From Terriglobia bacterium (GTDB lineage: Bacteria > Acidobacteriota > Terriglobia > Acidiferrales > UBA7541), in NCBI GenBank assembly GCA_020073705.1, contig JAIQES010000016.1, positions 1-64,000 of the forward strand: 64,000 nt of DNA, in the 5' to 3' direction. The position numbers and the translations under genes were made by a program. The notes under the pieces are model-generated. The model saw only the letters and a list, made by a program, of their open reading frames with translations. It had not been told where the DNA came from and did no database searches. Every line of letters starts with the position of its first letter. The stretch's first letter is position 1. This document shows positions 22,991 to 55,341 of the stretch, piece after piece.

Positions 22991-23017
22991 CCCGCATTTC
23001 TCACCGCGAGCACAGCG

Positions 23018-23225
23018 CCGGAGGCGCGAAAGAATCTAGCCCAGGGCGTCAGCCCTGGGAAACGAGGGTTTCGTCCAGCAAGCCCCGGTAGGGGCGAAAG
23101 AAAAGAATTCTACCGGAATGTAAGAACAGCATTTCTGCCGCCCCTTCTGGGGCTCCGGTGCTTTTTCGAAGGTTTCCCAGCACTTGCGTGCTGGGCTAAA
23201 TTCTTTCGCCCCTTCCAGGGGCTCG
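23018..23225. repeat. Compound palindromic repeat (nested hairpins)
   Basis: About 208 bases built of five GC-rich hairpins with 4-5-base loops: 23040-23059, 23082-23095, 23140-23153, 23176-23195 and 23208-23222. The outer parts are also inverted copies of each other: GCGAAAGAATCTAGCCCAG on the left matches, in reverse complement, CTGGGCTAAATTCTTTCGC on the right, so the whole element folds as one large imperfect palindrome. It lies between the MmeI-type gene and the stop of a convergent ABC ATPase gene, and may also end transcription from both sides. It looks like a REP/BIME-like element; no coding capacity. Confidence 0.85.
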
Positions 23226-39620: not shown

Positions 39621-39848
39621 CTCTCGTCTTCCCGGTGCTTGCGAAAGAAACAATCTCTATTAGTAATCAGAATATCGTCCGCGCTCAGCGCGGTCAAGGC
39701 GGCGGCAAGACATGGAGTCCGAGTGTCCAGATCCAGTTTGGGCATCGACATTTTCTTTTGAGGAGGGGTATTATCGGGCGTTCGGCAACGGAATGCAAAG
39801 TTCACTGAAAGAATCACCAGTAAAGTCGCTGATTGAGGGGGGAACATC

Positions 39849-40712
39849 TTGCGAATGTGCCGTTTCGGGGAAGATAGACTCGGTGTGGTTGAGGGCGCTG
39901 GTGTCCGCGACGTTACGCCGGCACTCGAGCTACTTGAGAGCTATCGGTATCCGTTACCGCCATTCGATCCACTGATTGCTAACCTCGGCAAATTACGCAG
40001 CCGCATCGAGGAGCTGGCCGTTCGAGCACCCTTGCAGCCACTTTCTGAGGTCAAGCTCTTAAGTCCCGTGGCCAACCCGCGAAAAATCATCGGCGCCCCA
40101 ATGAACTATACCAAGCACGTGCAGGAGGTACGCCAAAATCACGAGATCCACCACGACAACGCTAGCCACAAAAATGACATTCACCGGGCTGGTCTGTTCT
40201 TAAAAGCAACGAGTTCTTTGGTTGGACCCAGCGAAGGCGTGATCATCCGCCATCGCGACAGGCGAAACGATCACGAAGTGGAACTCGCGGTGGTGATCGG
40301 CAGTCGCACAAATCGCGTGAGTCGCTTTCGTGCGCTTGAGAGCGTTGCCGGATATTGTATCGGATTGGATATGGTCACGCGGGGACCGGAGGAACGCAGT
40401 TTCCGGAAGTCCATTGATACCTATAGTGTAATGGGGCCCTGGTTGGTTACGGCGGACGAGATTCCCGACCCTTCCAATCTCGAATTGGCGATCACAGTAA
40501 ACGGTGAACTAAGGCAGAAGGCAAACACGCGCGATCTGATTCTTAGTGTGGCCGAGCTCATTGAGCTGGCGTCGTCTTTTTACACACTCGAGCCGGGGGA
40601 TATACTGATGACAGGAACCCCGGATGGAGTCGGGCCTGTACAGGCTGGGGACCTGATGATCGCGTCCATTGAGAGGATTGGGAGCATGGAAGTGCCGGTC
40701 CGCGCGGCCTAA
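39849..40712 (+). CDS. Fumarylacetoacetate hydrolase-family protein (likely fumarylpyruvate hydrolase)
   Basis: 287 residues. The FAH fold is shown by PRKIIGAPMNYTKH, LKATSSLVGP, the metal-binding acidic set in DHEVELAVVIG and GYCIGLDMVTRGP, and the terminal PGDILMTGTPDGVGP. The metal-dependent enzyme cleaves carbon-carbon bonds in fumaryl or maleyl ketones. Beside a gentisate dioxygenase it most probably cleaves the product of that pathway (maleylpyruvate or fumarylpyruvate) to pyruvate. The start is TTG at 39849 (GAGGGGGG six bases away) or the ATG at 39855. Confidence 0.9.
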   Translation: MRMCRFGEDRLGVVEGAGVRDVTPALELLESYRYPLPPFDPLIANLGKLRSRIEELAVRAPLQPLSEVKLLSPVANPRKIIGAPMNYTKHVQEVRQNHEIHHDNASHKNDIHRAGLFLKATSSLVGPSEGVIIRHRDRRNDHEVELAVVIGSRTNRVSRFRALESVAGYCIGLDMVTRGPEERSFRKSIDTYSVMGPWLVTADEIPDPSNLELAITVNGELRQKANTRDLILSVAELIELASSFYTLEPGDILMTGTPDGVGPVQAGDLMIASIERIGSMEVPVRAA

Positions 40713-41018
40713 CCGGCAATTGAAATCGATGGCAAATAAACGAAGACCGGTACGCAGGATTGTAGGACCATTTCCACGTTGTGGAATCAGCCTGTCATCC
40801 CGAGCGGAGCGAGGGATCTCTCCTTCTTACTTTCAAACAAAGAGAGATTCCTCCCTTCGTTCGGAATGACAACCGGTGGTGTAATTGCAACCAGTTGCTG
40901 GCCGCGCGAACACCGAAGGAGGCATACGCGATAGCCTAGCTTGGCTCTATGATGCTTAGCGCCTGCCCTCATAAGGCTGGGCTCGAAGGCTGCGGAGCGC
41001 CCGGGCTGGCTCATCGAT
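40713..41018. other. Intergenic region in the gentisate operon
   Basis: About 300 bases holding the palindromic repeat at 40793-40871. No gene was seen. It separates the hydrolase and dioxygenase genes, so cotranscription across it is uncertain. Confidence 0.5.
40793..40871. repeat. Palindromic repeat with TGTCATTCCGA-type ends
   Basis: The left end TGTCATCCCGAGCGGAGCG matches, in reverse complement, the right end ...CGTTCGGAATGACA; the middle (GAGGGATCTCTCC... AGAGATTCCTCCCTT) is also partly inverted. The whole 79-base unit folds into one long hairpin. A second member lies at 62335-62403. This is the common REP/MITE-like type of bacterial intergenic palindrome. Confidence 0.82.
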
Positions 41019-42077
41019 GTGAAAATTATGACGATTGCACTCGGAACGCTTGAAGATCTTCCTGCTGATTACAGGAAATCAATGGAGGAGGTCCACGTAT
41101 CGCCGCTCTGGCCAGCGTTACGCAACCTGCTGCCGCTCCACCGGCCTATTGCGGTCACAAAATCCAGTCTTTGGTCTTTCGGACGCATCCGGCCGCTCGT
41201 ACTTCGCGCAGGCGAACTGACGCCGATTGAAAAGGCTGAGCGGCGAGTATTGGTGCTCTGCGATCCGGGGCGCGGTACCGCATTCCCTCAGGCGACTGCG
41301 ACGATCTACGTGGGTTTCCAGCTTTTGCTCCCTGGTGAGCATGCTCCGGCGCATCGCCATATCCCCAGTGCCGCTCGCATCATCGTCGAAGGCGAGGGCG
41401 CGTACACGACTGTGAACGGCGAGAAGTGCGCGATGCACCCTGGCGATTTGATTCTAACGCCCGGCGGGATGTGGCACGAGCACGGCCACGAAGGTACGGA
41501 GCCTGTCATCTGGCTCGACGCACTCGACGTGCCCATTCTTGCTTACCTGGAAGGGTCGTATAGGGAAGAAGGTAAACCCCAAATTGTGCCTAGCCGGCCC
41601 GACGGCTCCGCTGTCGAATATAGCCAAGCGGGTCTCGTGCCCAGCCGTCATTATCGTGCTCCGCGACCAAACTATCCCCTGCTGCGTTATCCTTGGGAGC
41701 GGACAGAGGCAGGACTCCGAGCGATTGCGAAGCACGCTAGCTCCAGCGAGATCGCAGAGCTCGAATACATTAACCCCGAAACCGGGGATTCCTGTCTGCC
41801 CACTTTAGGCTTCACGGCGATGATGCTCTTGCCGGGCCGTGTAGCACGGCCGCCAATCCGCTCGTCGAGCGCGGTGTTTCATGTAATTCATGGCTCAGGT
41901 CGCTCCACAGTCGATGGCGAGATCCTAGCTTGGAAGAGCGGCGACACCTTTTCCGCATCCGTTTTTGCGGAAGTGGAGCACATTGCGTCGGGCACCGAGC
42001 CCGCTTTCCTAATTCGTATCCACGATGCACCCTTGCAGCAGAAGCTCGGCTTTTACGAAGAGCGGCCTAGGTCATGA
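41019..42077 (+). CDS. Gentisate 1,2-dioxygenase-like cupin
   Basis: 352 residues, a bicupin. The first cupin has the Fe-binding set in APAHRHIPSAARIIVEGEG and PGGMWHEHGHEGTEP, close to gentisate 1,2-dioxygenase (ring cleavage of gentisate to maleylpyruvate); salicylate or 1-hydroxy-2-naphthoate dioxygenases are near relatives. The second cupin (FHVIHGSGRSTVDGE) has lost metal ligands, as in the family. GTG 41019 or ATG 41028 is the start. It lies downstream of the FAH-family gene, and its stop overlaps the ATG of a third gene that is now truncated. No gentisate regulator was seen. Confidence 0.88.
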   Translation: MKIMTIALGTLEDLPADYRKSMEEVHVSPLWPALRNLLPLHRPIAVTKSSLWSFGRIRPLVLRAGELTPIEKAERRVLVLCDPGRGTAFPQATATIYVGFQLLLPGEHAPAHRHIPSAARIIVEGEGAYTTVNGEKCAMHPGDLILTPGGMWHEHGHEGTEPVIWLDALDVPILAYLEGSYREEGKPQIVPSRPDGSAVEYSQAGLVPSRHYRAPRPNYPLLRYPWERTEAGLRAIAKHASSSEIAELEYINPETGDSCLPTLGFTAMMLLPGRVARPPIRSSSAVFHVIHGSGRSTVDGEILAWKSGDTFSASVFAEVEHIASGTEPAFLIRIHDAPLQQKLGFYEERPRS

Positions 42078-42142
42078 AGGAGACGAAGGGCAGCGGACCG
42101 CTCGCCGGGACGCTAGTGGTCGAGCTGGGCACCTTCATTGGG
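42074..42142 (+). pseudogene. N-terminal stub of a family III (CaiB/BaiF) CoA-transferase cut by a repeat
   Basis: The frame opens with an ATG at 42074 that overlaps the gentisate gene stop (ATGA) and reads MKETKGSGPLAGTLVVELGT: GPLAG-x-x-VVELG is the diagnostic start of family III CoA-transferases (about 400 residues). After about 23 codons the sequence becomes the dispersed repeat described at 42143-42333, and the frame stops at 42211. The third gene of this operon has therefore been interrupted, or deleted from here on; no further piece was found downstream. Confidence 0.66.
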
Positions 42143-42333
42143 CGCGTGGGCCAGGCTTTGGGGTTGAATTTTCAGGCGCCCTTCCCCTCGCGATTTTCGA
42201 GGGGTGGGTAGTTTTTGGTTCTTGGTCGAGTTCTTGTTTTCACTGGACCGGATCGATACGGATCAGTTCTTTATTCATGGAACGGAGAGAACACCCAACC
42301 CTTCCAAAAAGTGTGAATGGGTTGGCCACCCGC
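42143..42333 (+). repeat. Dispersed repeat family, copy 1 (internally deleted)
   Basis: It starts with GCGCGTGGGCCAGGCTTTGG, contains the common core (TTGGTTCTTGGTCGAG, GATCGATACGGATCAG, GGAGAGAACACCCAACC) and ends in GGGTTGGCCACCCGC. The part between the two AAAAA tracts (about 85 bases, present in copies 2 and 3) is missing, as if lost by recombination at AAAAA. It replaces the rest of the CoA-transferase gene. Confidence 0.88.
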
Positions 42334-42708
42334 ATGGTGACACGCGGCTGGCGATTGATTGAGAGAAAGCGGTGCGGGATATTAAAACGCAGGAATTTCG
42401 TATCGCGCGAATCGCCATCGCCGTTACGGAAACTACTGTTAAGCCACCAACACTAAATTGATGCGGGAATAGTTGGGCGGCCCCGTGCCCAATTTGTGTC
42501 CAATTCCTACAAAAACCTACCAACAGCATCAACGCCCTAGATCAACACAGCGCATGTGCTGTAGTAACTATAGTAGGTATATAGAGGGGGTGAGACCCCC
42601 CCACTGGCCGTCCTCTTGATTCCTTTGCCCGCTTCTTCCTCCGGCACCTACTACACCTTCTACAAGGGCAATTCCGAAGCGCTGCGATTGGCCACTCGCC
42701 CAGTGCCG
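42334..42708. other. Gene-free stretch
   Basis: About 375 bases with no supported gene. The notable structure is a hairpin at 42586-42600 (GGGGG, loop TGAGA, CCCCC) shortly past the stop of the Met-rich gene in its direction of transcription, plus a short palindrome AGCGCATGTGCT (42549-42560). No T-run follows the hairpin on the minus strand. Confidence 0.5.
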
Positions 42709-43128
42709 CTATTTCGAAGCTGGTGGCGTGCTACCGCCCATCATCCTCTGCATCATGTTCTGCATCGTGTTGCCCTGCTCCATCATCTGGTTCTGCATCT
42801 GCTCGAGCAGGGCGCGATGTTCGGCTAGCTTTGATTTCAGCGCGTTCTTGTCTTTCTCGTTTTGGATCGCAGTCATGCTCTGCATCAGCTTGTTCATTGT
42901 TTCCGTCATCTCTTCATGATGGGCCGCTATCTGCCCCATCGACATGCCCATCATCATGCCCATCATCATACCGTCGCCCATCATCCCCTGACCAGTGGCT
43001 CGGGGCTTGGATTGATCTTGTGTAGTCTGATCCTGAGGATCTTTCTGTGAACGCTGAGCGGCACCGGCAATCGTGAATGCCGAAAGAGTTGCAGCAAGGA
43101 TTGAAGCGGTGACCACTTTGTATCTCAT
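42709..43128 (-). CDS. Methionine-rich secreted protein
   Basis: 139 residues with a cleavable signal peptide (ending near IAGAAQR). The mature part begins Gln/Asp-rich, then has a cluster GMMGDGMMMGMMMGMSMGQ, and ends as an amphipathic helix with further Met pairs (MEQGNTMQNMMQRMMGG); about one residue in five is Met. Met-rich periplasmic segments are known to bind Cu(I) or Ag(I), and His residues (AAHHEEM) are also present. No copper-exporter gene is near, so a metal role is only suggested. AGGAGG precedes the ATG. Confidence 0.8.
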   Translation of the reverse strand: MRYKVVTASILAATLSAFTIAGAAQRSQKDPQDQTTQDQSKPRATGQGMMGDGMMMGMMMGMSMGQIAAHHEEMTETMNKLMQSMTAIQNEKDKNALKSKLAEHRALLEQMQNQMMEQGNTMQNMMQRMMGGSTPPASK

Positions 43129-43226
43129 GGTTTTCCTCCTGAACGGATAGATGCTGCCAAACGTTTCAATTCGTTTAAGTGACCTGCAACGCGCCTAACA
43201 TTCCCAGCATACTTGAAGTAAAGGGC

Positions 43227-43513
43227 GTGTGGCGCACCCTTTGGGGTTGCAGTTTCGAGTGCCGCACCCCGCGCGATTTTCGAGGAATGGGTGGTTCTTG
43301 GTCGAGTTCTCGTTTTCGATGGGCCGGATCGACGCGGATCAGTCCTTTACTCATGGAACGGAGAGAACACCCAACCCCGACTCTTTCAAGAACCTGAAGG
43401 GTCTGGCGCCCGAAAAGCCAAACCAGTCACTCGGCATTAAAATGCCGGAGTGGCATGATTCAACCGTGAGTATTAGCCAACTGAAAAAGTGTGAATGGGT
43501 TGGCTACCCACCC
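43227..43513 (+). repeat. Dispersed repeat family, copy 2
   Basis: Near full-length: GTGTGGCGCACCCTTTGGGG at the left, core CTTGGTCGAGTTCTCG, hairpin region ACTCTTTC-AAGAACCT-GAAGGGTC, then GGCATGATTCAACCGTGAG and the common tail ending GGGTTGGCTACCCACC. It encodes a 96-codon frame (43229-43519) that has no ribosome site. The rest of 43129-43726 has no gene. Confidence 0.88.
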
Positions 43514-43726
43514 CACTAACTGCTGGGTGACTGACCCGGCGCCCTGACACAAAGTGCCACCATGAAAGATGATTCATAGAACATCGAGCATTTCTGAATT
43601 CACCGTTGTACGAATCCAACAGGTACATTTGTCCTATAGGCACGTAGGCACGCGACGTCCCCCGGATGCCAAGTTGCATGGGATATCCGGCCCTCCAGTT
43701 TAAGTCCAAGAACGAGGACGCGATTT

Positions 43727-44578
43727 ATGACCAATGGGCCGTCACCAAGCTCTCTCACCGGTGAGTTACAGATTGAAGTATTCGGGGCGGACCTCGATGG
43801 ACGTCAATTCATCGAACAGACTCGACCTCTGACGATTACTCGAGACGGCGCAATCATCCTCTTGGCGAGCAAGCTGGCCCCTGAATCCGAATTGATTGTT
43901 CGCAATCCGGTGACCAAGGAGGAAGCCGTCGCTCGCGTGGTGGACCTTATTCGGGACGCCATTTTCGTTCACGTGTATGGCATTGCTTTCATCGATCCGT
44001 CAGTGAATCTATGGCAGGTCGAATTCCCGGAAATACAGGGCAAGAAGACGGTCATCATGGAGTGCAGCGGTTGTCACGCCGTTGACGCTGTCTTGCTTAG
44101 TGAAATTGAAATGGAGATTCTTAAATCGAAGCAAGCGCTAAGGCGGCACTGCGAGTGCAGCAATTCCTCGACGATCTGGAAGCAGTCGGATCGAAAAGTG
44201 ACGGAACGAAAGGCCACAGAACGCCGAGTGAGCGATCGGCCGCGACAAATCTCCCCTATAGAGAAACCGACTACACGAGCCCCACAGGAAAGACGAAGAG
44301 AAAAACGCACGGCCATGAAAGCCCCTGCGTGCATTCGGTGCTACGGTGGGGAAATAGTCGTCGAGTGTGAAGACGTGTCTCGGGGCGGCTTCCGCTTCAA
44401 GAGCCGCAATGCATATCCGGCAGGGATGCAGATCGAAGCAGCGGTCCCCTACACGAAAAGTAGCGTCAACATATTCGTAACTGCTCAAATTGTCTATCAA
44501 CAGGAATTGTCCGGCGGGTTCTATAGGCACGGCGTGGCCTACGTGGAATCCATCAAAGAGCCTGACTCAAAATCATAA
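43727..44578 (+). CDS. Protein with two PilZ-like domains
   Basis: 283 residues. The N-terminal part (about 10-110) has a PilZ-like beta-barrel pattern, similar to the N-terminus of the protein at 58757, but lacks the R-x3-R c-di-GMP signature. The linker holds four Cys (MECSGCHAV; HCECS), a possible metal site. The C-terminal domain has ERRREKRTAMKAP and DVSRGGFRFKS, the R-x3-R and D/N-x-S-x-x-G motifs of a c-di-GMP-binding PilZ domain. Cytoplasmic; it could link c-di-GMP to an unknown output. A second PilZ gene lies convergently at 44704. Confidence 0.85.
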   Translation: MTNGPSPSSLTGELQIEVFGADLDGRQFIEQTRPLTITRDGAIILLASKLAPESELIVRNPVTKEEAVARVVDLIRDAIFVHVYGIAFIDPSVNLWQVEFPEIQGKKTVIMECSGCHAVDAVLLSEIEMEILKSKQALRRHCECSNSSTIWKQSDRKVTERKATERRVSDRPRQISPIEKPTTRAPQERRREKRTAMKAPACIRCYGGEIVVECEDVSRGGFRFKSRNAYPAGMQIEAAVPYTKSSVNIFVTAQIVYQQELSGGFYRHGVAYVESIKEPDSKS

Positions 44579-44703
44579 TTCGCTCGGCGGAAGACACACA
44601 TGGCGACCCAACCTTCCTGGCTTGCATCGCGAGCGGTTGCTCAGTTGGCCTATCTCACAGGAATCGGCAGCGATCCGATCTGCAATCAGTCGGAAGGGTG
44701 CTG

Positions 44704-45153
44704 CTAGCTTTCTGAATCTTGTTCGGACATGGATGACGGGATGTGTCCTACTAGCGCGAATGATTGGAATGCCGACTTTGCAACCGTCGAAGCGTTCAAT
44801 ACAGAATTGCCAATACGGATCAACTGGACAGCGATGCCGTACTCGCCAAAGGGTAGCTGTTCAATCCGCACGACCTCACCTAGGTACTCGAAGTTGAAAC
44901 AGCCGAACGCGGGTGTCACGTACAACTGCATCCCTTTGCGATAAGGCTCTATCCGGGCGGTGATGAAGTAAAACCCAATCCGGCTGAAGTCGGTCATGGT
45001 CCGCACTTCCTCGAAGCCAGCGTCACTCGGGTCGGCTGGCCTCACGTAAACGGGGCGGGCGCTTCGAGTCCGAGGCTCTCGACGCCGGTCCGCCTGGCCT
45101 GCCAGTGAATCTTGTGCTTCCCGAGAAAAAATCCTTTGCTGCAGCTCGTTCAT
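44704..45153 (-). CDS. PilZ domain protein
   Basis: 149 residues from the ATG at 45153, with GGGAGG upstream. It has RRREPRTRSARPVYVRP and MTDFSRIGFYFIT, the two c-di-GMP-binding motifs of PilZ domains (R-x3-R and D-x-S-x-x-G). A single domain with a short tail; no membrane segment. It faces the two-domain PilZ protein at 43727 across about 125 bases, suggesting both were kept for signalling, though no c-di-GMP enzyme is in the window. Confidence 0.85.
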   Translation of the reverse strand: MNELQQRIFSREAQDSLAGQADRRREPRTRSARPVYVRPADPSDAGFEEVRTMTDFSRIGFYFITARIEPYRKGMQLYVTPAFGCFNFEYLGEVVRIEQLPFGEYGIAVQLIRIGNSVLNASTVAKSAFQSFALVGHIPSSMSEQDSES

Positions 45154-45420
45154 CACACCTCCCGCCTAAAATCCAGGCTTGGTGCTTCAGGGTCTTACGG
45201 CGCTCGATTTTATCTATATTCCGCTGTTGTCCGCTGACCGACGAGAGAGGGTAACGTTCCGCCCAAGATTGTGTCTATAGAGCAATGGTACCGTGCGCAA
45301 TGGCCCTAAAGTTTTTGGGGAAGCCGGAATTGCGGAAATTACCATGCGACTTCGACCTAATGGGCCAATCCTGGGATGCCGGTAGCAAATTAAAATGTAT
45401 GCTTTGAGGTTGAGAGACCG

Positions 45421-45719
45421 GCGGGTGGACCAGGCTTTGGGGTTGAATTTTCGGGTGTCTTTCCCCTCACGATTTTTCGAGGGGTGGGTGGGTTTTTGGT
45501 TCTTGGTCGAGTCCTCGTTTTCAATGGATCGGATCGATGCGGATCAGTCCTTTACTCCTGGAACGGAGAGAACACCCAACCCCGACCCTTCCAAAAACCT
45601 GAACGGTCGGGCACCCTCAAAAGCCAAACCAGTCAATCGGCGTTCACGTGCCGGAGTGGCATGATCCAACCGTGAGCGTTAGTCAACTGAAAAAGTGTGA
45701 ATGGGTTGGCCACCCGTCC
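45421..45719 (+). repeat. Dispersed repeat family, copy 3 (most complete)
   Basis: It runs from GCGGGTGGACCAGGCTTTGG to GGGTTGGCCACCCGTCC. It contains an arm with the palindrome CCCCTCACGATTTTTCGAGGGG, the core, the hairpin CCGACCC (45582-45588) / GGTCGG (45605-45610), the middle block GGCGTTCACGTGCCGGAGTG and the tail GTGAGCGTTAGTCAACTG. It ends five bases from the stop codon of the next minus-strand gene (45725). The remaining part of 45154-45420 holds the PilZ gene's upstream region and no gene. Confidence 0.9.
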
Positions 45720-45724
45720 ACGGT

Positions 45725-46120
45725 TCATCCCATGGCATGAATGGCTTGGGGCTCGATCTTATAAAGGACGCGCACTTCACCCGGCGCGCGGAAGGGATAG
45801 TGATCCTGGCCGAGATATTTCTTAGCCTGCTTGTCAATGTGCCCGTCCGCACCCTTTTCGGTGATCTCAGCTACGCGACCGCGAATCGAGAGGTGCCGGT
45901 AAGGGTTGTCCGGATCGAGAAGGTCAATCCCAACTCGCGGATCGCGCCGCATATTGCGATCCTTGACGCGGCCCTTGGCGGTATTGATCACAATGTATCG
46001 GCCATCATAGTCGACCCAAACGGGTGTCACATGGGGGCTTCCGTCCGGCATTAAAGTAGCGAGCTGCGCAAAAGATTTTTTCTGAAAAATATCGAGATAC
46101 TTTTCGGGGATCGTGGTCAT
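45725..46120 (-). CDS. PPOX-class (pyridoxamine 5'-phosphate oxidase-like) F420/flavin oxidoreductase
   Basis: 131 residues from the ATG at 46120. Split-barrel fold shown by FAQLATLMPDGSPHVTPVWVDYDG, the cofactor-binding INTAKGRVKDRNMRRDPRVGID and YRHLSIRGRVAEI. Proteins of this size and start (PEKYLDIFQKKSFAQL) belong to the F420-dependent PPOX group, though FMN binding is possible. The substrate is unknown. Single gene, ending against repeat copy 3. Confidence 0.85.
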   Translation of the reverse strand: MTTIPEKYLDIFQKKSFAQLATLMPDGSPHVTPVWVDYDGRYIVINTAKGRVKDRNMRRDPRVGIDLLDPDNPYRHLSIRGRVAEITEKGADGHIDKQAKKYLGQDHYPFRAPGEVRVLYKIEPQAIHAMG

Positions 46121-46277
46121 AGAGAACCTCGCAAATTCAATTAAAGTGTACACCTTTGATCAATAAACGTCCGAAGATGCAGCCTAAACCGGAATTTGCG
46201 ATTTGGACGTCTAGTTCGCACATCGTATGCTTCTCCTGCCTACGACACAACGAATTTCCCACTAGAGCAGGCGCGTA

Positions 46278-46326
46278 GCGAGCGTTCGTCAACTGAAAAA
46301 GTGCGAATGGGCTGGCCACCCGCCCG
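46278..46326 (+). repeat. Dispersed repeat family, copy 4 (tail only)
   Basis: Only the last 49 bases of the repeat: GCGAGCGTTCGTCAACTG... GGGCTGGCCACCCGC. It ends eight bases from the stop of the next minus-strand gene (46334). Confidence 0.82.
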
Positions 46327-46333
46327 CATATAC

Positions 46334-46978
46334 CTATTTGATTGGCTTTAGCTCGGGCTGAGCGCCGTCCGGCAGCGGATAGCGGTCGACATTGAGAAGC
46401 ATCGAGACGAGGTGGTAATAACCCATTACACCGATAAGATCGACGACACCGCGCTCGCCCAGTTTGTCCACAGCGGCTTTGAATGTGGCGTCGCTCACCT
46501 GCCGGGTGTTGAGCAGCTCGGTGCAGAAGTTGTAGACGACTTCCTCATCTGGCTGCATCGAGACTGGCCGCTTCCCTGTCGCCACGGCGTCGATGACTGC
46601 CGGACTCAAGCCGGCCTGGAGAGCGTATTGGTGGTGGGCGTACCACTCATACTGCGAGTTCCAGAAGCGCCCGGTGATGAGGATCGCGAACTCATTGAGT
46701 TTGTTCGGGATCGATGAGTGAAAGCGCGTGTAGGATCCGTACTTCTGCGCCAGATCACCCATCTCCGGGCTGCGCAGGAAGACGTTGTACGGCCCGTTCA
46801 TGGAGCCGCGCTCTCCCGCCAGCACATGATCGGTCATCGTTTTCTGTTCGGGGGTCATCTGCTCGTACGTGAGCGGCTTGAAGCGGTCCCCTCGGAGTTG
46901 AAACACAGGACCGGACTGGGCGAATGCCATTGCCACACCAAAACCCAAAAGGTCTGCCAAGACAAGCTTGAAAATCAT
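46334..46978 (-). CDS. Exported carboxymuconolactone decarboxylase/AhpD-like protein
   Basis: 214 residues from the ATG at 46978, with AAAGGCGGG upstream. A hydrophobic N-terminus ending in AFAQS looks like a signal peptide. The mature part has an AhpD-like helical fold, with FAILITGRFWNSQYEWYAHH where AhpD-type enzymes have a CxxC pair; here the Cys are absent, so a peroxidase role is unlikely. CMD relatives act on lactones. The protein therefore has an unknown, probably non-redox, role. Confidence 0.8.
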   Translation of the reverse strand: MIFKLVLADLLGFGVAMAFAQSGPVFQLRGDRFKPLTYEQMTPEQKTMTDHVLAGERGSMNGPYNVFLRSPEMGDLAQKYGSYTRFHSSIPNKLNEFAILITGRFWNSQYEWYAHHQYALQAGLSPAVIDAVATGKRPVSMQPDEEVVYNFCTELLNTRQVSDATFKAAVDKLGERGVVDLIGVMGYYHLVSMLLNVDRYPLPDGAQPELKPIK

Positions 46979-47053
46979 CGCGTCCCGCCTTTCTTCATGA
47001 GGATCGGTAACATATCGAAATCTTATAAGCTGGTCCATCCGGTTGGCAATTAT

Positions 47054-47282
47054 CTTGGTTCTTTGTTCTTGTTCGAGTTCTCGCTTTCAACGGACCGGAT
47101 CGATGCGGATCAGTCCTTTCATGGAACAGAGGGAACACCCAACCCCGACTCTCCCAAGAACCTGAAAGGTCGGCCACCCGGCATGATGAGGAAAAACCAA
47201 GAAACCTCCCAACGCTCGAAAACCGCGAGCACTACGGCACCCCAAAATTCGCGCCCCGTAAAGGCACGGCCACCCGCCTGTC
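47054..47282 (+). repeat. Dispersed repeat family, copy 5 with an inverted left arm
   Basis: The core (TCTTGGTTCTTTG...GATCGATGCGGATCAG...AACACCCAACCCCGAC) is in the usual direction up to about 47180. From about 47196 to 47276 the sequence is the reverse complement of the left arm of the other copies (reading GGCGGGTGGCCGTGCC... GCGGTTTTCGAG... TTTCTTGG on the minus strand). The normal tail is absent. It ends eleven bases from the stop at 47293. Confidence 0.82.
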
Positions 47283-47292
47283 GACAAGGGTT

Positions 47293-48843
47293 TCATGGTT
47301 GTACACTCTCGACTTTCTCGATTGACCACGCTTCAGTGTGGAAGTCACCCTTGTATGGTCCACCCGGCGAATAATTCGGGCCTTTGCGGAGTTCTCCCAA
47401 CGAAAGGTGGCTCGAGTGTTCCAACATAAAGTAGCCTTCGAATTTTTCACCAAGGCTAGCCTCTTCTAAAGCGCCGGGGATATCTTGACCGACGAGTCTT
47501 CCTGCAACCGAGGGAACACTTTTGCAATCTTTCTTTGAATCGAACTCCTCCACTGGCTTCGTGTGGCATACAACCGCATCCACCACGGTGGCTGTATATA
47601 GTCTGTTGCCGTACCGAACCACCACGACGTTTGTGTTTGGGTTGTATGCCACGACGTGGTACCTAATGAAGGCATTCGGCGTTTCTTTCGGCTCGGTTGC
47701 CTTCGGCTCCGCTTCGTTAGGCAAGTTCTGGAGCCTGGACGATTGATTTTGGAGTATGCGTTTCGCTTCATTGACGGGGACTGCGAAATTCAGATTTTCT
47801 CCACCCTTGAGGTACAAAGTCGTAATACCAACGACCTCTCCCGCCATGTTAAACAACGGGCCGCCACTGCTGCCCGGCGAGATCGGGGCAGTGATTTGCA
47901 AAAATTTCCCGCCCAGCTCCTTATCTGTTCGAATTCCGCTGACTATGCCGTTTGAAACGGTCGATTCGAGCGAAAGCGGATTGCCAATAGCAACGACTTC
48001 TTCGCCCACCTGAACATGATCCGAGTTCCCAAGCGTGAGCGTCCGGAAGTTGTTGCCGTGTGCTTTGATGACGGCAATATCACGTACTCTATCGGATGCG
48101 AGAACTCCATCGACAACAAAGAAAGCTCCGTCAGGAAGCTTAACGACAGCGGAGCTACCCTCGGCAATCACATGATAGTTCGTTACGATGACGCCGTCCT
48201 TGCTCACAAGGAAACCGCTGCCTTGGGCTATAGGACTGCCCTTGTCCGACATGATGATTGAGACAACCGCCCCGTTTGCGACTTTGGCTATTGCAGGTAT
48301 GTCGTTTCCGGGCGTCACCGACTGCGCTCTTGTAGCCGTCGACGGCGTGGTCATCGTCTCGGACAAGATGTCAAAAGCCACATAGGCATAGACATCGGCG
48401 TTCCAGGACGGCCTATACTGCAACACATTTCCAATGCGGGCCATACACGGCGCTGCCGTAGGTTGTGTAGCGATCGCTGGTTCTCCCCCAAAAACCTTTG
48501 TCATTAGGCAGGCGTGAATCTTCATGCCCAAGGGCGGTATCTGGGACAGATCGGGATCACGTTCACTAAAGTGCAGGTGAATTCCTGTGGGTTCGAACTC
48601 GCCCTGCTTTCCGCTGTGGGTCTGCGACATTGAGTATGTGACCTTCAGAATCTCTGCCCCATGTTCGATGGTGTAGACCTCAGCGTTCGGCAAGAAGTCT
48701 TTTTGGGGGACACTGTCGTGCGTTGTTATCACGTATGTGCCTTGCGACGATATGGCCTGCGCATTGGACGTTTCCCGAGATTGCTGCGCAGCAGTATTCC
48801 ACCCGATTAGCGCAACGAGAAGAATCAGACGTAGGAATTTCAT
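47293..48843 (-). CDS. Secreted trypsin-like (S1C, HtrA-type) serine protease without PDZ
   Basis: 516 residues from the ATG at 48843. A signal peptide (FLRLILLVALIGWNTAAQQ) is followed by a novel N-terminal domain of about 160 residues. The protease domain has VTNYHVI (His), RDIAVIKAHG (Asp) and GSSGGPLFN (Ser) in S1C order. PDZ domains, typical of DegP/HtrA, are missing; instead about 120 C-terminal residues of unknown type follow, with VVVRYGNRLYTATVVDAVVCHT. The catalytic triad is intact. It ends against repeat copy 5. Confidence 0.88.
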   Translation of the reverse strand: MKFLRLILLVALIGWNTAAQQSRETSNAQAISSQGTYVITTHDSVPQKDFLPNAEVYTIEHGAEILKVTYSMSQTHSGKQGEFEPTGIHLHFSERDPDLSQIPPLGMKIHACLMTKVFGGEPAIATQPTAAPCMARIGNVLQYRPSWNADVYAYVAFDILSETMTTPSTATRAQSVTPGNDIPAIAKVANGAVVSIIMSDKGSPIAQGSGFLVSKDGVIVTNYHVIAEGSSAVVKLPDGAFFVVDGVLASDRVRDIAVIKAHGNNFRTLTLGNSDHVQVGEEVVAIGNPLSLESTVSNGIVSGIRTDKELGGKFLQITAPISPGSSGGPLFNMAGEVVGITTLYLKGGENLNFAVPVNEAKRILQNQSSRLQNLPNEAEPKATEPKETPNAFIRYHVVAYNPNTNVVVVRYGNRLYTATVVDAVVCHTKPVEEFDSKKDCKSVPSVAGRLVGQDIPGALEEASLGEKFEGYFMLEHSSHLSLGELRKGPNYSPGGPYKGDFHTEAWSIEKVESVQP

Positions 48844-49201
48844 CGCTTTAACCCCGCCGACGACTGTGGCCGATTCATCGTCGAAAGCTCCCACCACCGG
48901 CACCGTACGCCGCCAACCAAAATAGTAGGCAGACAGTAAATACCTTCACAGGACATTTCCCCTTTCTGACCTAGGATCATCGTATTGTGGAGTTCGATCA
49001 AGCAGTTGTGTTTCTTTGCATAATTACTGAGGGGGCACATTAATGTGTCGGCTCAAGATTGGGGCGGCGGGAGCATTAAGTCTGCAGCCGAGCCAGCCAG
49101 TGGCCACTCGGCTGCCGAAATGCGGTCTGGTTCTCAGACGGAGTGACGGCACAGGTCTAGCTGTGGCAAGATCCCAAGGTTCGCAACGCAATGGAGGGAA
49201 G
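48844..49201. other. Divergent upstream region of the protease and SDR genes
   Basis: About 358 bases. A frame from 49043 runs into the SDR gene but lacks homology before 49202. Promoters for both divergent genes should lie here; none was placed with confidence. Confidence 0.45.
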
Positions 49202-49906
49202 ATGAACCTGAAAAATAAAGTTGCATTGATCACTGGTGGCAGTAGCGGCATTGGGCGCGCCATTGCTCAAACACTTGTCACCAGCGGGGCGCGCGTAGCC
49301 ATCACGGGGCGCGACAAACAACGGCTGACGGAGACGGCGCGAGAACTGGGGGCACATCCAATTCATGCGGACGTGGCGCTGGAGGCGGATGTTGAGCGGA
49401 CCTATCGTGAAGTTCTGCAGCAATTCGGCGATCTGGACGTCCTTGTGAACAACGCTGGGATCGGTGTCTTCAAGAACCTCGTTGATTTCGACCGAAAAGA
49501 TTTCGAAGCCGTGTTTGCCACGAACGTTACTGGAGCGATGCTTATGGCCCGCGAGGCCGCCAAGCATTTTATAAAGCGGCAGCGCGGAAACATCGTGAAT
49601 ATCGCCTCAACCGCTGCGCTGCGCGGGGCTCCGAAGGGCACCGCATACTATGCCAGTAAGTTCGCCCTTCGGGGCATGTCTGAGTGCTGGCGAGCGGAGC
49701 TTCGGCAACACAACGTCCGGGTGTTTCTGATCAACCCAAGCGAGGTTTTGACAAACTTCTACCCCAGGGCGGGGTTAGCACAAAAGGAGAATGCGACCAA
49801 ACTGCGCGCGGAAGATATCGCATACGTAGTGAAATCGATGCTGGAGATGGATGACCGTGGGTTTGCGCCCGAGTTGTCCATTTTTGCCACGAATCCCAAG
49901 GATTGA
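49202..49906 (+). CDS. Short-chain dehydrogenase/reductase (3-ketoacyl-ACP reductase-like)
   Basis: 234 residues from the ATG at 49202, with GGAGGGAAG before it. NAD(P)-binding TGGSSGIGRAIAQ, NNAGIG, active-site Ser (NIASTAALRG) and YYASKFAL (Y-x3-K). The C-terminus (ELSIFATNPKD) is typical of the FabG-like/YdfG group. The substrate is unknown. Single gene in the repeat-rich region. Confidence 0.9.
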   Translation: MNLKNKVALITGGSSGIGRAIAQTLVTSGARVAITGRDKQRLTETARELGAHPIHADVALEADVERTYREVLQQFGDLDVLVNNAGIGVFKNLVDFDRKDFEAVFATNVTGAMLMAREAAKHFIKRQRGNIVNIASTAALRGAPKGTAYYASKFALRGMSECWRAELRQHNVRVFLINPSEVLTNFYPRAGLAQKENATKLRAEDIAYVVKSMLEMDDRGFAPELSIFATNPKD

Positions 49907-49927
49907 CCCGGAATTCCCATTTTGATG

Positions 49928-50130
49928 GTGGCCCAGCCTTTCGCTTCACGGAAGGATGATAACACTTCCCCTAGATGAACATCTCTCGGGGTGGATGGTT
50001 TTTGGTTCTTGGTCGAGTTCTCGTTTTCAATGGACCAGATCGATGCGGATCAGTCCTTTACTCATAGAACGGAGAGAACACCCAACCCCGCCCTTCCAAG
50101 AACCTGAAGGGTCGGGCCCCCGGCCCAAGC
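49928..50130 (+). repeat. Dispersed repeat family, copy 6
   Basis: A left extension shared with copy 8 (GGCCCAGCCTTTCGCTTCACG, TAGATGAACAT), then the core and the hairpin CCCTTC (50091-50096) / GAAGGG (50106-50111) ending GTCGGGCCCCCGG. The tail block is missing. It ends about 30 bases from the stop at 50158. Confidence 0.85.
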
Positions 50131-50157
50131 CAATGGAAACCCCGGGCCAGGCCAGGA

Positions 50158-50715
50158 CTACCAGGGGACGCCCGAATCTACGTAACCGCGATGCAGGAGA
50201 TTCATTCGCGTCGTTAAGGCCCAAAGGTCGAGCTGGATTTCGGGCTGGATTGTCTTCGGGTCGATCTTCCTCGCAAGCACCGCCTGGCCGCAAACGCGCA
50301 GATCCACGCCGGCGTTTTTCAAACTTCGAATCAGAGCGATGTTGGGATTGTCATGGCCGTCGTTGCGCGCCTTGAACGCCTCGTTGTTTTGGACGATATC
50401 GGTGGCGTCTTGATGGAATATGATGGCGATCTTGCGATGATCAGCCGGGACGCCATTCTTGACAAGAGTATTGAAGTACCGCGCGACACCGGCGAGGCCT
50501 GGATTCACTTCGTCAGGTTTCGGAGCCGCTTTGCCGATGTCGAAGACGATTTTATAGGTCACACTTGGATCGGGCAGTTCTTTCGCGCCGGGTATATCCT
50601 TAGCCGCCTCGTAGCCGGGGATCGCCAGGGTTTGCGCCGACTGCGCAAACGCGGAGCTGGAAAGTCCAATCAACACGGCCAACACGGTCGCACCACCGAT
50701 CAATAATCTTCTCAT
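50158..50715 (-). CDS. Secreted DsrE/DsrF-like protein
   Basis: 185 residues from the ATG at 50715, with GGAGG upstream. Signal peptide ends at AFAQS. The mature part is a DsrE-like fold (VTYKIVFDIG, IAIIFHQDATDIVQNNEAF, and VDLRVCGQAVLAR with the single Cys that in DsrE proteins carries a persulfide). Periplasmic DsrE-like proteins of this type are found near sulfur genes, but none are here. The function is unknown. Confidence 0.82.
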   Translation of the reverse strand: MRRLLIGGATVLAVLIGLSSSAFAQSAQTLAIPGYEAAKDIPGAKELPDPSVTYKIVFDIGKAAPKPDEVNPGLAGVARYFNTLVKNGVPADHRKIAIIFHQDATDIVQNNEAFKARNDGHDNPNIALIRSLKNAGVDLRVCGQAVLARKIDPKTIQPEIQLDLWALTTRMNLLHRGYVDSGVPW

Positions 50716-50822
50716 CGTAACCTCCATCAACAAAGATTTCCGTCCTCAGGTTCCGAGACCTGATCCTGTCACCTATACGTCCCACACCGGCGCGTGTCAA
50801 CGACTTTGAGACCAGTGGTCAT

Positions 50823-50907
50823 GGAATCGGCGTTGACGCGCCGGATTGGTATGATCCAAATGTGAGCGTTAGTCAACTGAAAAAGTGCGAATGGCCACCC
50901 GCCCGTG
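50823..50907 (+). repeat. Dispersed repeat family, copy 7 (right half only)
   Basis: It holds only the right part: GGAATCGGCGTTGACGCGCC, GATTGGTATGATCCAAATGTGAG, AGTCAACTG and a tail shortened to GAATGGCCACCCGCCC. It ends eleven bases from the stop at 50918. Confidence 0.82.
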
Positions 50908-50917
50908 AATGAATTCA

Positions 50918-51247
50918 TCACGTCTTTGCAGTGTGCCCGACTGGCGCACTGGCCGGTGTGGTCCCTGGTAGTGGACCCTTGGGAATAATGATCCAAGCAA
51001 ACAGGTAAGCCAGGATTCCACCCACAAACCCGCCGGGAACCACAGACAGTGCCGCCCAAATCAGCCGCACGATTGTAGGATCAACGTTGAAATACTCGGC
51101 GATGCCTCCGCAAACACCTGCGATCTTGGAGTCAGTACTTGAGAGCATCAACCGCCTGCACGAGGTAGCTAATCTTAGCCGGGCACCGCAGAAGGGGCAA
51201 TAATTCGCATACTCCGCAATTTCTCTTGAGCAATGTGAACAAACCAT
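50918..51247 (-). CDS. PspC domain protein with N-terminal zinc ribbon
   Basis: 109 residues from the ATG at 51247. It starts with a zinc ribbon (CSHCSREIAEYANYCPFCG, two CxxC pairs) and continues with a PspC domain (DSKIAGVCGGIAEYFNVDP, then membrane segment WAALSVVPGGFVGGILAYLFAW). PspC-type membrane proteins relate to envelope stress. The Cys4 ribbon fused to PspC is common in these bacteria. Single gene. Confidence 0.87.
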   Translation of the reverse strand: MVCSHCSREIAEYANYCPFCGARLRLATSCRRLMLSSTDSKIAGVCGGIAEYFNVDPTIVRLIWAALSVVPGGFVGGILAYLFAWIIIPKGPLPGTTPASAPVGHTAKT

Positions 51248-51559
51248 TTTGGGCCTCCAATGAAGATGGCCATCGGCCTGCAATATTGTGAATCAAATCC
51301 CATCCGCTGCCAATGCTATCTTCGTCATCACGATTCTCGTGGCATCTCATTAGGCTCGCTCCTCTGCCCGTCTGCGGTGAGTTGCATCACACAGTACGGT
51401 AACGGCCATCACCAGCAGCGCGTGGCTGTGGCCGGTGTCAGGTCCCTCCTAGGAGACGACTTTAGAACTCTGCTCTTGCATTGGCATCGCTTGTATAAGG
51501 CGATGGGTACCATTTTATTTTTCGCTTCCGGATTGTTGAGATAAAATACGCAAAGCCCA
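51248..51559. other. Divergent upstream region
   Basis: About 310 bases between the PspC gene (minus) and the PAS gene (plus). No gene, repeat copy or RNA was seen. The frame at 51260-51544 has no ribosome site or recognisable product. Confidence 0.45.
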
Positions 51560-52237
51560 ATGCACCATTATGGGGCTGACACCCGGAAGTCAGTCCGGCA
51601 AGTTATGTCCGGCAAATTCAGCAGTTGCATGAATTCAACCCGATTACCAGTTTTCTCCGATACCTTGCGCAGCGCCCTGGACGAGCGCAAAGATGTGATC
51701 TGTGTCTTGAGTTCCGATTTGCGCATCGCCTATTGCAATCCCGCCTGGGATCGCTTCGCTTTAGATAATCAAGGGGAAGAAGCCGTTGGCAGCCGCGTGC
51801 TCGGCACAAATCTGCTCGATGTTGCCGGGGAGTCCCTTCAACGCTTCTACAGGCACGTTTTCGACGCAGTGGCATCTTCCAGTAAGCCCTTCGACTTCGA
51901 TTATGAATGTTCGAGCGCAGATCGCTTCCGTATGTTCCGTATGGAGATCATGCCCCTTCGACCGACCGGGTTCTTGGTCGTCCATTCGCTGCGTGTCGAA
52001 GAACCACACTCTCGTAAGGCAGAATCCCCCGACGCGCAGCACTATCGGAATTCGAGCGGGATCGTCACCATGTGTAGCCATTGCCGCAGGACTCGACGGG
52101 TGGGGGAACCCCAGAGGTGGGACTGGGTCCCCGCTCACTTGGGTGATCGCTCCCTGAGTGTCAGCCATGGTCTGTGCCAGGTGTGCCGTGTTTACTATTA
52201 CCCCTCGGTTCCATCAAGCTCTCCCTCGTTGACGTAG
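51560..52237 (+). CDS. PAS-domain protein with C-terminal Cys motif
   Basis: 225 residues. A PAS-like domain (about 40-140: VICVLSSDLRIAYCNPAWD, then VLGTNLLDVAGES) is followed by a C-terminal module with CSHCRRTRRVGEP and SVSHGLCQVCRVYYYP, a pattern seen at the ends of some PAS sensors. No kinase, GGDEF or DNA-binding output is encoded, so it may bind a partner protein. The start could be 51560 or an internal ATG (51605). Signal sensed is unknown. Confidence 0.72.
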   Translation: MHHYGADTRKSVRQVMSGKFSSCMNSTRLPVFSDTLRSALDERKDVICVLSSDLRIAYCNPAWDRFALDNQGEEAVGSRVLGTNLLDVAGESLQRFYRHVFDAVASSSKPFDFDYECSSADRFRMFRMEIMPLRPTGFLVVHSLRVEEPHSRKAESPDAQHYRNSSGIVTMCSHCRRTRRVGEPQRWDWVPAHLGDRSLSVSHGLCQVCRVYYYPSVPSSSPSLT

Positions 52238-52312
52238 CTGATAAAACACCACTTAGATCAACACGAAGTTAGCATGCCGGGTTTGCGGGTGCCGCATCTG
52301 TCGCGTGGCGAC
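52238..52312 (+). repeat. Dispersed repeat family, left-extension fragment
   Basis: About 75 bases similar to the left extension of copy 8: CTGATAAAACACCACTTAG, ATCAACACGAAGTTAGCATG, CCGGGTTTGCGGGTGCC, CATCTGTCG. The core of the repeat is absent. Confidence 0.7.
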
Positions 52313-52446
52313 GGTACCGGCGGCGGTAGTGTGATGCCCGTCACAGAATGACGCGGGCGCCCAGGTATTTACTCGACGGCGATGGGTTGTGCGCGGAGAC
52401 CCGCAGCCCCAGCGCAGACAGCTTCCGAAACTTGAAAGGGCCGCCG

Positions 52447-54105
52447 ATGACAAGCACAGACGGGAACTCCGACATCCTGGTCAGGCAGATGACCCGGGAA
52501 GACATTCCGGCCGTGGTGGATTTGCAGAAACGCGTGTATTCCCGGATGCCCACGTGGACGTCCGAGGAACTCACCCACCACCTGGAGGTGTTTCCGGAAG
52601 GCCAGCTTGTGGCCGTCGACCGGACCGGACGGCTGCTAGGTTCGGCGAGCTCCCTGATCATCGACTGGGACGACTACTCCGAGTCAGCGAAATGGTCGAC
52701 CATCACCGGCGACGGATCTTTTGACACCCACAATCCTCTGGGCAGGACGCTTTACGGCGCGGATGTGGCCGTCGATCCTCTCGCCCGACGGAAGGGAGTA
52801 GGTTCCCTGTTCTATGAGGCGCGCAAGAAGCTAATACGCGAGCGCGGGCTGAAGCGGCTGCTCACCGGCGGGCGGATTCCGAGCTACGTGGAAGCCGGCG
52901 GCGAAATAACGCCGCAGCAATACGTGGCCGAGGTGGTCACGGGCAAGCGGAAGGACCCGACGCTCAGCTTCCAACTCGCAAATGGGATGGTGGTCCTCGA
53001 TGTGGTTCCGGACTATCTGGAGGACGCCGAGTCCCGCGGCTTCGCCACACTGCTGGAATGGCTGAATCCCGAGTACGTGACCACGGTAAGCCTGGGGGCC
53101 AGCGAGCAGCAGGCAGCGCTGGGCGAACTCGGCGAGGAGGCTCTTCGCGAGCGTCCGCGGCCAGCCCGCGTGCGGATCGCAGCCATGCAATACCTTCTGC
53201 GGCCGATCACGCACTTCGAGGATTTCGCGACCCAGGTGGAGTTCTTTGTCCGCAGCGCCAAAGAGTATGGCAGCCAGTTCGCGGTCTTCCCCGAATACTT
53301 CACGATGCAGATTCTGAGCTATCTGCGCGAACCCGCGCCCGGCCGGGCAGTGCGCCGCCTGGCCCAGTTGACCGCTGATTATGAAAACCTTTTCAAGCGC
53401 TTGGCGATGGAGAGCAGACTGTACATTATCGCGGGGACCCATCCCGTGATTCAGCAAGGCGAGTTGTTCAATGCGGCGCACTTGTTTACTCCGAACGGGC
53501 GCGTGTTTCGCCAGAAGAAGGTGCACCTGACCGCGACCGAAAAAGGTCCCTACCAGATGAGCCGGGGGCACGGCTTCTACGTCTATCACACCGACTTCGG
53601 CAAGATTGCCATCCTGGTGTGCTACGACGTGGAGTTTCCGGAGGCGGCGCGGGTATTAGCGGAAGCCGGCGCGGAAATCATGTTCGTTCCCTCATGCACG
53701 GATGAGCGCCAGGCATTCTGCCGGGTCCGCTATTGCGCCCAGGCCCGGGCCATCGAGAATCAAATCTACGTCGCGATGGCCGGCACGGTAGGCAATCTCC
53801 CCGAGGTGCCCTATATGGCTACGCATTATGGCCAGGCAGCCATCCTTACGCCCTCCGATTATTTTTTTTCACGGGACGGAATCGCGGCAGAGGGCATCGT
53901 CAATCAGGAGCAAATGGTGGTCTCGGATGTGGATTTGGATCTGCTCAATGAACAACGAGTCAACGGCACCGTGATTCCGTTGAACGACCTGATCCGCGAC
54001 GCCTACGACCGAGTGTTCCATTACGTGGACCAGCGGGAAGGCGGTAAGTCGGCCCCGGCGGGGCCTTCGCAGCCGTCAGGGAGCGTGGTCGTTCAGCGAG
54101 CCTGA
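52447..54105 (+). CDS. GNAT acetyltransferase fused to a carbon-nitrogen hydrolase
   Basis: 552 residues from the ATG at 52447. The N-terminal GNAT domain (ILVRQMTREDIPAVVDLQKR, then GADVAVDPLARRKGVGSLFYEARK acetyl-CoA loop) is joined to a nitrilase-type hydrolase with the triad Glu in FPEYF, Lys in QKKVHL and Cys in LVCYDVEFPEAARVL. Such fusions are known in a nitrilase branch; the substrate is unknown. Why acetyl transfer and C-N hydrolysis are joined is unclear. RBS is weak (AAAGGG). Confidence 0.9.
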   Translation: MTSTDGNSDILVRQMTREDIPAVVDLQKRVYSRMPTWTSEELTHHLEVFPEGQLVAVDRTGRLLGSASSLIIDWDDYSESAKWSTITGDGSFDTHNPLGRTLYGADVAVDPLARRKGVGSLFYEARKKLIRERGLKRLLTGGRIPSYVEAGGEITPQQYVAEVVTGKRKDPTLSFQLANGMVVLDVVPDYLEDAESRGFATLLEWLNPEYVTTVSLGASEQQAALGELGEEALRERPRPARVRIAAMQYLLRPITHFEDFATQVEFFVRSAKEYGSQFAVFPEYFTMQILSYLREPAPGRAVRRLAQLTADYENLFKRLAMESRLYIIAGTHPVIQQGELFNAAHLFTPNGRVFRQKKVHLTATEKGPYQMSRGHGFYVYHTDFGKIAILVCYDVEFPEAARVLAEAGAEIMFVPSCTDERQAFCRVRYCAQARAIENQIYVAMAGTVGNLPEVPYMATHYGQAAILTPSDYFFSRDGIAAEGIVNQEQMVVSDVDLDLLNEQRVNGTVIPLNDLIRDAYDRVFHYVDQREGGKSAPAGPSQPSGSVVVQRA

Positions 54106-54171
54106 CAACGGTATTGAATGACTCCCTAGAGAGAAGCGAGGCGACTAGCCTGCATTAGGGCCAGGTCGGCG

Positions 54172-54477
54172 GGGCCGAGCCTTTCGCTTCACGGCAGGCT
54201 GATAATACTCCCATTAGATCAACACGAAGTCACTATACCGGGTATGCGTGTGCCCTATCTGTCGGAAGGTGGAGCAGGCTTTGGAGTTGAGTTTTCGGGT
54301 ACCCTTCCGCTCGCGGTTTTCGAGGGGGTGGTTTTTGATTCTTGGTCGAGTTCCTGTTTTCAATGGACCGGATCGATGCGGATCAGTCCTTTACTCATGG
54401 AACAGAGAGAACGCCCAACGCCGACCCTTGAGCGTTAGTCAACTGAAAAAGTATGAATTGGGTTGGCCACCCGCCGG
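54172..54477 (+). repeat. Dispersed repeat family, copy 8 (longest left extension)
   Basis: It includes the left extension (GGGCCGAGCCTTTCGCTTCAC, TAGATCAACACGAAGTCAC), the arm (GGAGTTGAGTTTTCGGG... CTCGCGGTTTTCGAGGGG), the core, and a tail joined directly after CCGACCCTT, so the middle block is deleted with a breakpoint different from copy 1. It ends 33 bases from the stop at 54510. Confidence 0.88.
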
Positions 54478-54509
54478 CATGGCGCACGTTTTTCGGCTAG
54501 CGCAAGGAG

Positions 54510-55055
54510 CTATTTCGCGCGTTTGGCGCGTTGGGATGTGCGGTGGATCACCCAATCAAGAATAGGCAGGAACACGTTGAAGCGGTCCGTGCCGCGCGCA
54601 TGGTGCAGCAGGTGATGCCTCGCCGCTGGCCGGAGCCACTTGGGCAGCCATCCCCCCATGTGCGTGCGCCAGTGAATCTCCTCAAAAGCCATATAATAGA
54701 GCGCGAAGCTCGCAAATACTCCGGCAATCCAGCCAATGTGAAAGAACCACTGAAGAATCAAGAACGGAACCGCATTCGCACAAAACAGCGCCACCACTCC
54801 CCACGGATTACTCGAAAAATTGACGTATCGAGCGGCATCAGGAGACTGCAACGTGGTGTGATGCACCATGTGTTGCTCGGAGAAGATTCCGTGACCGGCG
54901 TGCAATAAGAATCTGTGCAAGCAGTATTCAAAACCGTTGGCATAAAGAAGACCTGCCACCATGCCAAACAGGAAGCCCCTGGTGGAAATTGCAGAATCGG
55001 GAAAACACTTGAGGGAAATGAGCAGGAGCACTGAACCGGACAGCAAGGCGGCCAT
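54510..55055 (-). CDS. Fatty acid hydroxylase/sterol desaturase-like membrane protein
   Basis: 181 residues from the ATG at 55055, with AAGAGGA upstream (an in-frame ATG at 55124 is possible). Several membrane segments and the His-rich motifs HRFLLH, HMVHH and HHLLHH expected for a di-iron centre of the fatty-acid hydroxylase superfamily. The eight-His set appears intact. The substrate (fatty acid, carotenoid or sterol-like lipid) is unknown. It ends against repeat copy 8. Confidence 0.86.
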   Translation of the reverse strand: MAALLSGSVLLLISLKCFPDSAISTRGFLFGMVAGLLYANGFEYCLHRFLLHAGHGIFSEQHMVHHTTLQSPDAARYVNFSSNPWGVVALFCANAVPFLILQWFFHIGWIAGVFASFALYYMAFEEIHWRTHMGGWLPKWLRPAARHHLLHHARGTDRFNVFLPILDWVIHRTSQRAKRAK

Positions 55056-55192
55056 CAGATTATTCCTCTTAATTCTTACCCCCTGGGCGTTCGCCAATGT
55101 CCGAATTGCGCCATCCGAATGCATTTCAGAACAAGCTAACGCTTTCGACGGTCTGCGGCAAGGGAGGTATCCTCGGGGCTCTGTCCAGGGCG

Positions 55193-55294
55193 GGTGGACC
55201 ATCGATAAGAGCGAAGGCGTTGACGCGCCAGAGCGGTAAGATCCAATCGTGAGCGTTAGTCAACCGAGAAAGTGTGAATGGGTTAGCCACCCGC
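55193..55294 (+). repeat. Dispersed repeat family, copy 9 (right half only)
   Basis: Contains GGCGTTGACGCGCCAGAGCG, AAGATCCAATCGTGAGCG, AGTCAACCGAGAAAGTGTG and the tail end GGGTTAGCCACCCGCC. It is like copy 7, but the next gene (55355) is on the plus strand. Confidence 0.82.
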
Positions 55295-55341
55295 CAGTTA
55301 CAATCACATACTAAAGTTCCCGTACATTTCGCTCGATCGAT

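Follow-up and report, generated by a model that had tools for sequence, protein, structure and literature searches.

The locus analysed here carries a gentisate 1,2-dioxygenase-like gene (GDO) followed directly by a very short reading frame that begins like a CoA-transferase and then runs into a repeat, which raises the question of how this frame came to be cut and where the rest of the gene went. We examined the 64,000-nucleotide stretch that contains the locus (the window), which derives from a contig of 77,596 bp in a draft genome of 3.79 Mb and 78 contigs. The features discussed below are collected in Table 1.

Table 1 Features at and around the junction
Feature	Positions	Strand	Basis
FAH-family hydrolase gene, intact	39849..40712	+	Pfam FAA_hydrolase (E 5e-53); plasmid-borne Cupriavidus homologue at 62%
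Gentisate 1,2-dioxygenase-like bicupin ring-cleavage dioxygenase (GDO), intact, 352 aa	41019..42077	+	Cupin_2, TIGR02272, sequence matches
Codons 1-22 of a family III (CaiB/BaiF) CoA-transferase gene, presumed pseudogene stub	42074..42139	+	PSSM, leave-one-out controls, direct sequence
Hybrid 45-codon ORF: 22 CoA-transferase codons and 23 read-through codons of the repeat	42074..42211	+	Sequence
Repeat copy 1, 194 bp, both termini, lacking ~100 bp internally compared with copies 2 and 3	42140..42333	+	Alignment, blastn among copies, ends
Repeat copy 2, near full length	43223..43512	+	Repeat finding, alignment, blastn
Repeat copy 3, full-length reference, ~299 bp	45420..45718	+	Repeat finding, alignment, blastn
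Repeat fragment, 3' end only	46280..46325	+	blastn
Repeat fragment, middle	47056..47180	+	blastn
Weak inverted 5'-end fragment, following the fragment 47056..47180	47192-47278	-	blastn
Repeat fragment, middle	49988..50133	+	blastn
Repeat fragment, 3' half	50809..50909	+	blastn
Repeat copy 6, both ends, internally deleted	54264..54475	+	Alignment, blastn, ends
Repeat fragment, 3' half	55215..55297	+	blastn

A CoA-transferase stub is coupled to the dioxygenase gene

A preliminary description of this DNA had proposed that an ATGA overlap joins GDO to a new frame with the start of a family III CoA-transferase. The overlap is indeed present, with the GDO stop codon (TGA, 42075-42077) overlapping the ATG of the next frame (42074-42076), the translation of which is MKETKGSGPLAGTLVVELGTFIGRVGQALGLNFQAPFPSRFSRGG. 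A position-specific scoring matrix (PSSM) was built from 15 family III CoA-transferase N-termini, taken from five other genomes and the source genome. The 15-residue stretch GPLAGTLVVELGTFI scored 28.6 bits against this matrix, while the runner-up among the 89,726 stop-free six-frame 15-mers of the window reached 9.2 bits; the 15 family members themselves scored between 11.3 and 33.6 bits when left out one at a time. The ORF has no match in Pfam or PHROGs. Pfam requires longer matches than a 22-codon stub can offer, and despite its silence the sequence allows a firm assignment of the stub as the N-terminus of a family III CoA-transferase. With respect to PF02515 membership, the N-terminal motif is present and the full-length protein with its catalytic part is absent, the frame leaving the family after codon 22. 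The cut had been placed after 23 codons; 22 are certain, and codon 23 (GGG) already belongs to the repeat, so that the original count holds to within one codon. The overall span given for the hybrid structure, from the ORF start to the end of repeat copy 1 (42074-42333), is correct. We presume that the stub is dead.

The break coincides with a repeat terminus and the remainder of the gene is gone from the assembly

The frame meets the left end of repeat copy 1 at 42139/42140, placing the break on the element terminus to within ~1 bp and agreeing with the earlier observation of a clean junction, in which the frame turns into the repeat within one codon. From 42140 onwards, the sequence can be aligned to the 5' termini of copies 2 (43223), 3 (45420) and 6 (54264). 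Copy 1 shares its starting point with copies 2 and 3 and with the elements of congeners (GGCGGGTGG-like) and stops at 42333 with the common GGCCACCCGC end, hence both of its termini are present.

To the right of copy 1, a PSSM scan found no CoA-transferase motif or continuation in any frame, and a simple insertion with the gene resuming beyond the repeat was rejected on this basis. A weaker test of the right flank, which at three of five CoA-transferase loci picked a longest frame other than the CoA-transferase, likewise gave no motif; we place the weight on the genome search and the PSSM scan. The genome contains five PF02515 matches, each covering essentially the whole profile and all located on other contigs, and no orphan CoA-transferase piece was found elsewhere in the assembly. 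As the right flank is empty and all five genomic CoA-transferases are essentially full length, the remaining ~370 codons are gone from this assembly and not merely displaced. This search for the missing C-terminal part had been recommended in the preliminary description. Since the right flank bears no trace of the gene, insertion alone does not suffice; there must also have been a deletion, or a join to unrelated DNA. The earlier view that the gene was reshaped by the element itself, or by a deletion with one end in it, is supported. No plasmid homologue of the junction was found. The region immediately right of copy 1 (42334-42700) is non-coding and gives no sign of where it came from; the far end of the deletion is expected here.

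The repeat is MITE-like and, in this genome, confined to 13 kb

Repeat finding in the window returned families of 4-7 copies, and a 19-nt end motif of the repeat occurs 6 times against 0.02 expected from shuffles, confirming that the repeat is real. Copies possessing both ends are non-coding and span 194-299 bp, with the near-full-length ones at ~290-300 bp, and the copies differ among themselves by roughly 10-30%. The element ends are GGCGGGTGGCC/GGCCACCCGCC, and the terminal inverted repeats are imperfect, as seen in copy 3 from comparison of the 5' end (GGCGGGTGGAC) with the reverse complement of the 3' end (GACGGGTGGCC). Copy 3 folds into one long hairpin closed by the ends (-120.8 kcal/mol, z -2.3); the fold of copy 1, which is shorter, is unremarkable (z -1.3). 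Genome-wide, all clear copies lie in 42140-55297 and share one orientation, save for the weak fragment at 47192-47278. Such confinement to 13 kb in a single orientation is odd for a mobile element. Congeners and two other genera of the family possess repeat pieces that are 69-89% identical, dispersed over contigs and found in both orientations.

No target-site duplication of 4-10 bp was detected at copies 1, 2, 3 or 6, possibly reflecting decay of such duplications in old copies, and no transposase linked to the repeat was found. Transposition is thus unproven, and we refer to the repeat as MITE-like as opposed to a MITE. Integron-type attC sites were considered, the copies being directional and intergenic, and rejected by eye only, since the conserved 7-mers do not fit. 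Integration linked to a tRNA was likewise rejected, there being no tRNA in the window. A literature search did not reveal a published acidobacterial repeat of this kind.

The copies sit in many intergenic gaps, some of them as halves that flank a minus-strand gene; the halves at 49988-50133 and 50809-50909, for example, lie either side of the minus-strand gene 50158-50733. A further local repeat (49930-49981, 52237-52303 and 54173-54264) occurs directly left of both copy 5 and copy 6, which suggests segmental duplication in that stretch. Elsewhere in the window, two Acido-Lenti-1 RNAs occur in opposite orientation ~120 bp apart (23014-23059 on the minus strand and 23176-23223 on the plus strand); their presence makes it likely that the genome is that of an acidobacterium.

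The dioxygenase gene resembles proteobacterial homologues

GDO is a full-length bicupin with two cupin stretches (Pfam Cupin_2, E 7e-23) and covers positions 5-334 of the 336 in the TIGR02272 profile (E 2e-80). The TIGR02272 score of 270 bits falls below the equivalog cut-off of 442 bits and does not fix the exact substrate; GDO is related to the gentisate 1,2-dioxygenase equivalog, and we describe its substrate as putatively gentisate-type. The best relative is found in an alphaproteobacterial Microvirga MAG (69%), with further relatives from the same class and order at 64-66% and 61-65%. Among 399 genomes of the bacterium's own class, the top full-length match is 42%, with a partial stretch of up to 47%. 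No match was detected in five congeners, two of which are only about 70% complete. Upstream of GDO lie mnmA-like and nifS-like genes (identified by eye) whose arrangement is conserved in three congeners. This synteny stops at 39653-39849, directly after the nifS-like gene, and GDO is located just past the break. Given both the proteobacterial affinity and this position, the simplest reading suggests that GDO is DNA imported from Proteobacteria. No virus-borne relatives of GDO were confirmed.

The FAH-family hydrolase gene possibly encodes the maleyl/fumarylpyruvate hydrolase of the GDO pathway. It ends ~300 bp upstream of GDO, with another repeat in between (40797-40870). The term gentisate operon used previously is therefore loose. 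The intervening sequence is a different inverted repeat (TCATCCCGAGCGGAGCGAGGGATCTC ... GAGATTCCTCCCTTCGTTCGGAATGACA), and a similar one occurs at a congener locus (L060).

No family III CoA-transferase near the dioxygenases scanned

We inspected 64 GDO loci (53 + 11) from genomes of the same class, near proteobacterial relatives and nine plasmid regions; two of these (L025 and L084) represent one location, and many extend just ~1.5 kb to each side of the gene. A family III CoA-transferase was within reach of GDO in none of the 64, using a detector that recovered nine out of ten held-out controls (scores 51-87) and missed the tenth, L057, at 12.9. The neighbours, identified partly by eye, include genes for FAH hydrolase, maleylpyruvate isomerase, hydroxybenzoate monooxygenase, Rieske oxygenase and TctC-type transporters. 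The proposal that the lost gene activated an aromatic substrate upstream of gentisate, which is a guess, finds no support in these loci. As no intact dioxygenase/CoA-transferase pair was found in the 64 loci, we infer the earlier state of this locus. The preliminary description had named two findings that would count against it, a conserved 45-codon gene and related genomes in which the third gene is intact and belongs to another family. Neither turned up: the fetched dioxygenase loci contain no homologue of the 45-codon ORF, and no close relative with such a third gene at this locus was found, although near dioxygenase relatives do carry other genes at the position after GDO.

Origin of the junction

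The observations are probably best explained by a resident MITE-like repeat having entered acquired dioxygenase/CoA-transferase DNA, followed by loss of the gene beyond the repeat. The genome would have acquired a gentisate-type dioxygenase gene, apparently proteobacterial, together with a coupled family III CoA-transferase gene. The resident, non-coding repeat of ~300 bp would then have landed in codon 23 of the latter; the terminus-exact left junction points to the element itself having made that join, and the missing right side to a later deletion. All of the gene to the right of the repeat would then have been lost. The simplest route is recombination between a pair of same-oriented copies, with one partner inside the CoA-transferase gene and the other further right, which would yield one hybrid copy; alternatively, a deletion may have started at the element's end. 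The outcome would be a dead 22-codon stub whose frame continues into the repeat. This sequence of steps, entry by transposition, loss by recombination and lack of function all belong to the proposed scenario.

It is possible, albeit unlikely, that an intact gene was never present here, and that the incoming fragment, on arrival, was fused within its CoA-transferase gene to a repeat copy in the resident DNA. In keeping with such a join, only short distances separate the stub, the repeat and the synteny break, the dioxygenases most similar to GDO are proteobacterial, and the right-hand DNA contains at least one genus-typical gene (46334-47038, 66-71% in four congeners). However, a random fragment end would rarely fall on an element terminus to within ~1 bp unless the element took part. 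A contig wrongly joined at the repeat is a good deal less probable: the genome is a draft of 78 contigs and the junction coincides with a repeat, but copies roughly 10-30% apart are poor material for a false join, and no contig holds a dangling CoA-transferase remainder. We consider it highly improbable that the 45-codon ORF is a genuine small gene that is conserved in its present form. Its ATGA coupling to the dioxygenase would suit a gene, but the second half of the ORF belongs to the repeat, close copies of which occur at non-coding sites, and neither the fetched loci nor Pfam and PHROGs provide a counterpart.

In the preferred reading, entry of the repeat followed by deletion, the junction offers a relative date. 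As GDO looks like a proteobacterial import and the repeat sits in the neighbouring gene, the repeat would have moved or recombined after import, and the repeat family would thus have been active at that time. Beyond this relative dating, the locus illustrates ordinary gene decay following horizontal transfer: the stub is what remains of a gene that decayed in an ordinary way, at the border of DNA that is probably imported, and represents no new kind of system. A broader and rather doubtful speculation is that a MITE-like repeat, shared at the level of the genus or family and lacking any known partner, gathers locally in one orientation in recently acquired DNA, where recombination between copies trims foreign operons, the stub being one product.

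Comparison with known systems

Proteobacterial gentisate catabolic clusters likewise combine a ring-cleavage bicupin dioxygenase with a nearby FAH hydrolase gene. They differ in that none of the 64 loci scanned has a family III CoA-transferase coupled to its dioxygenase gene. Here, the FAH gene precedes GDO, at a distance of ~300 bp and with another repeat between. Family III (CaiB/BaiF, PF02515) CoA-transferases share the N-terminal motif PLxGxxVxELxxxI, which the 22-residue stub fits; they comprise ~400 codons, of which just the first 22 are left here, the catalytic part being gone. MITE-type elements are non-autonomous elements of bacteria (reviewed in PMC10969869). Like them, the repeat is small (~300 bp) and non-coding, has imperfect terminal inverted repeats, and exists in several diverged copies, one of which interrupts a gene. 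Unlike such elements, it shows neither target-site duplications nor an identified partner transposase, and its copies in this genome lie within 13 kb, nearly all of them in one orientation.
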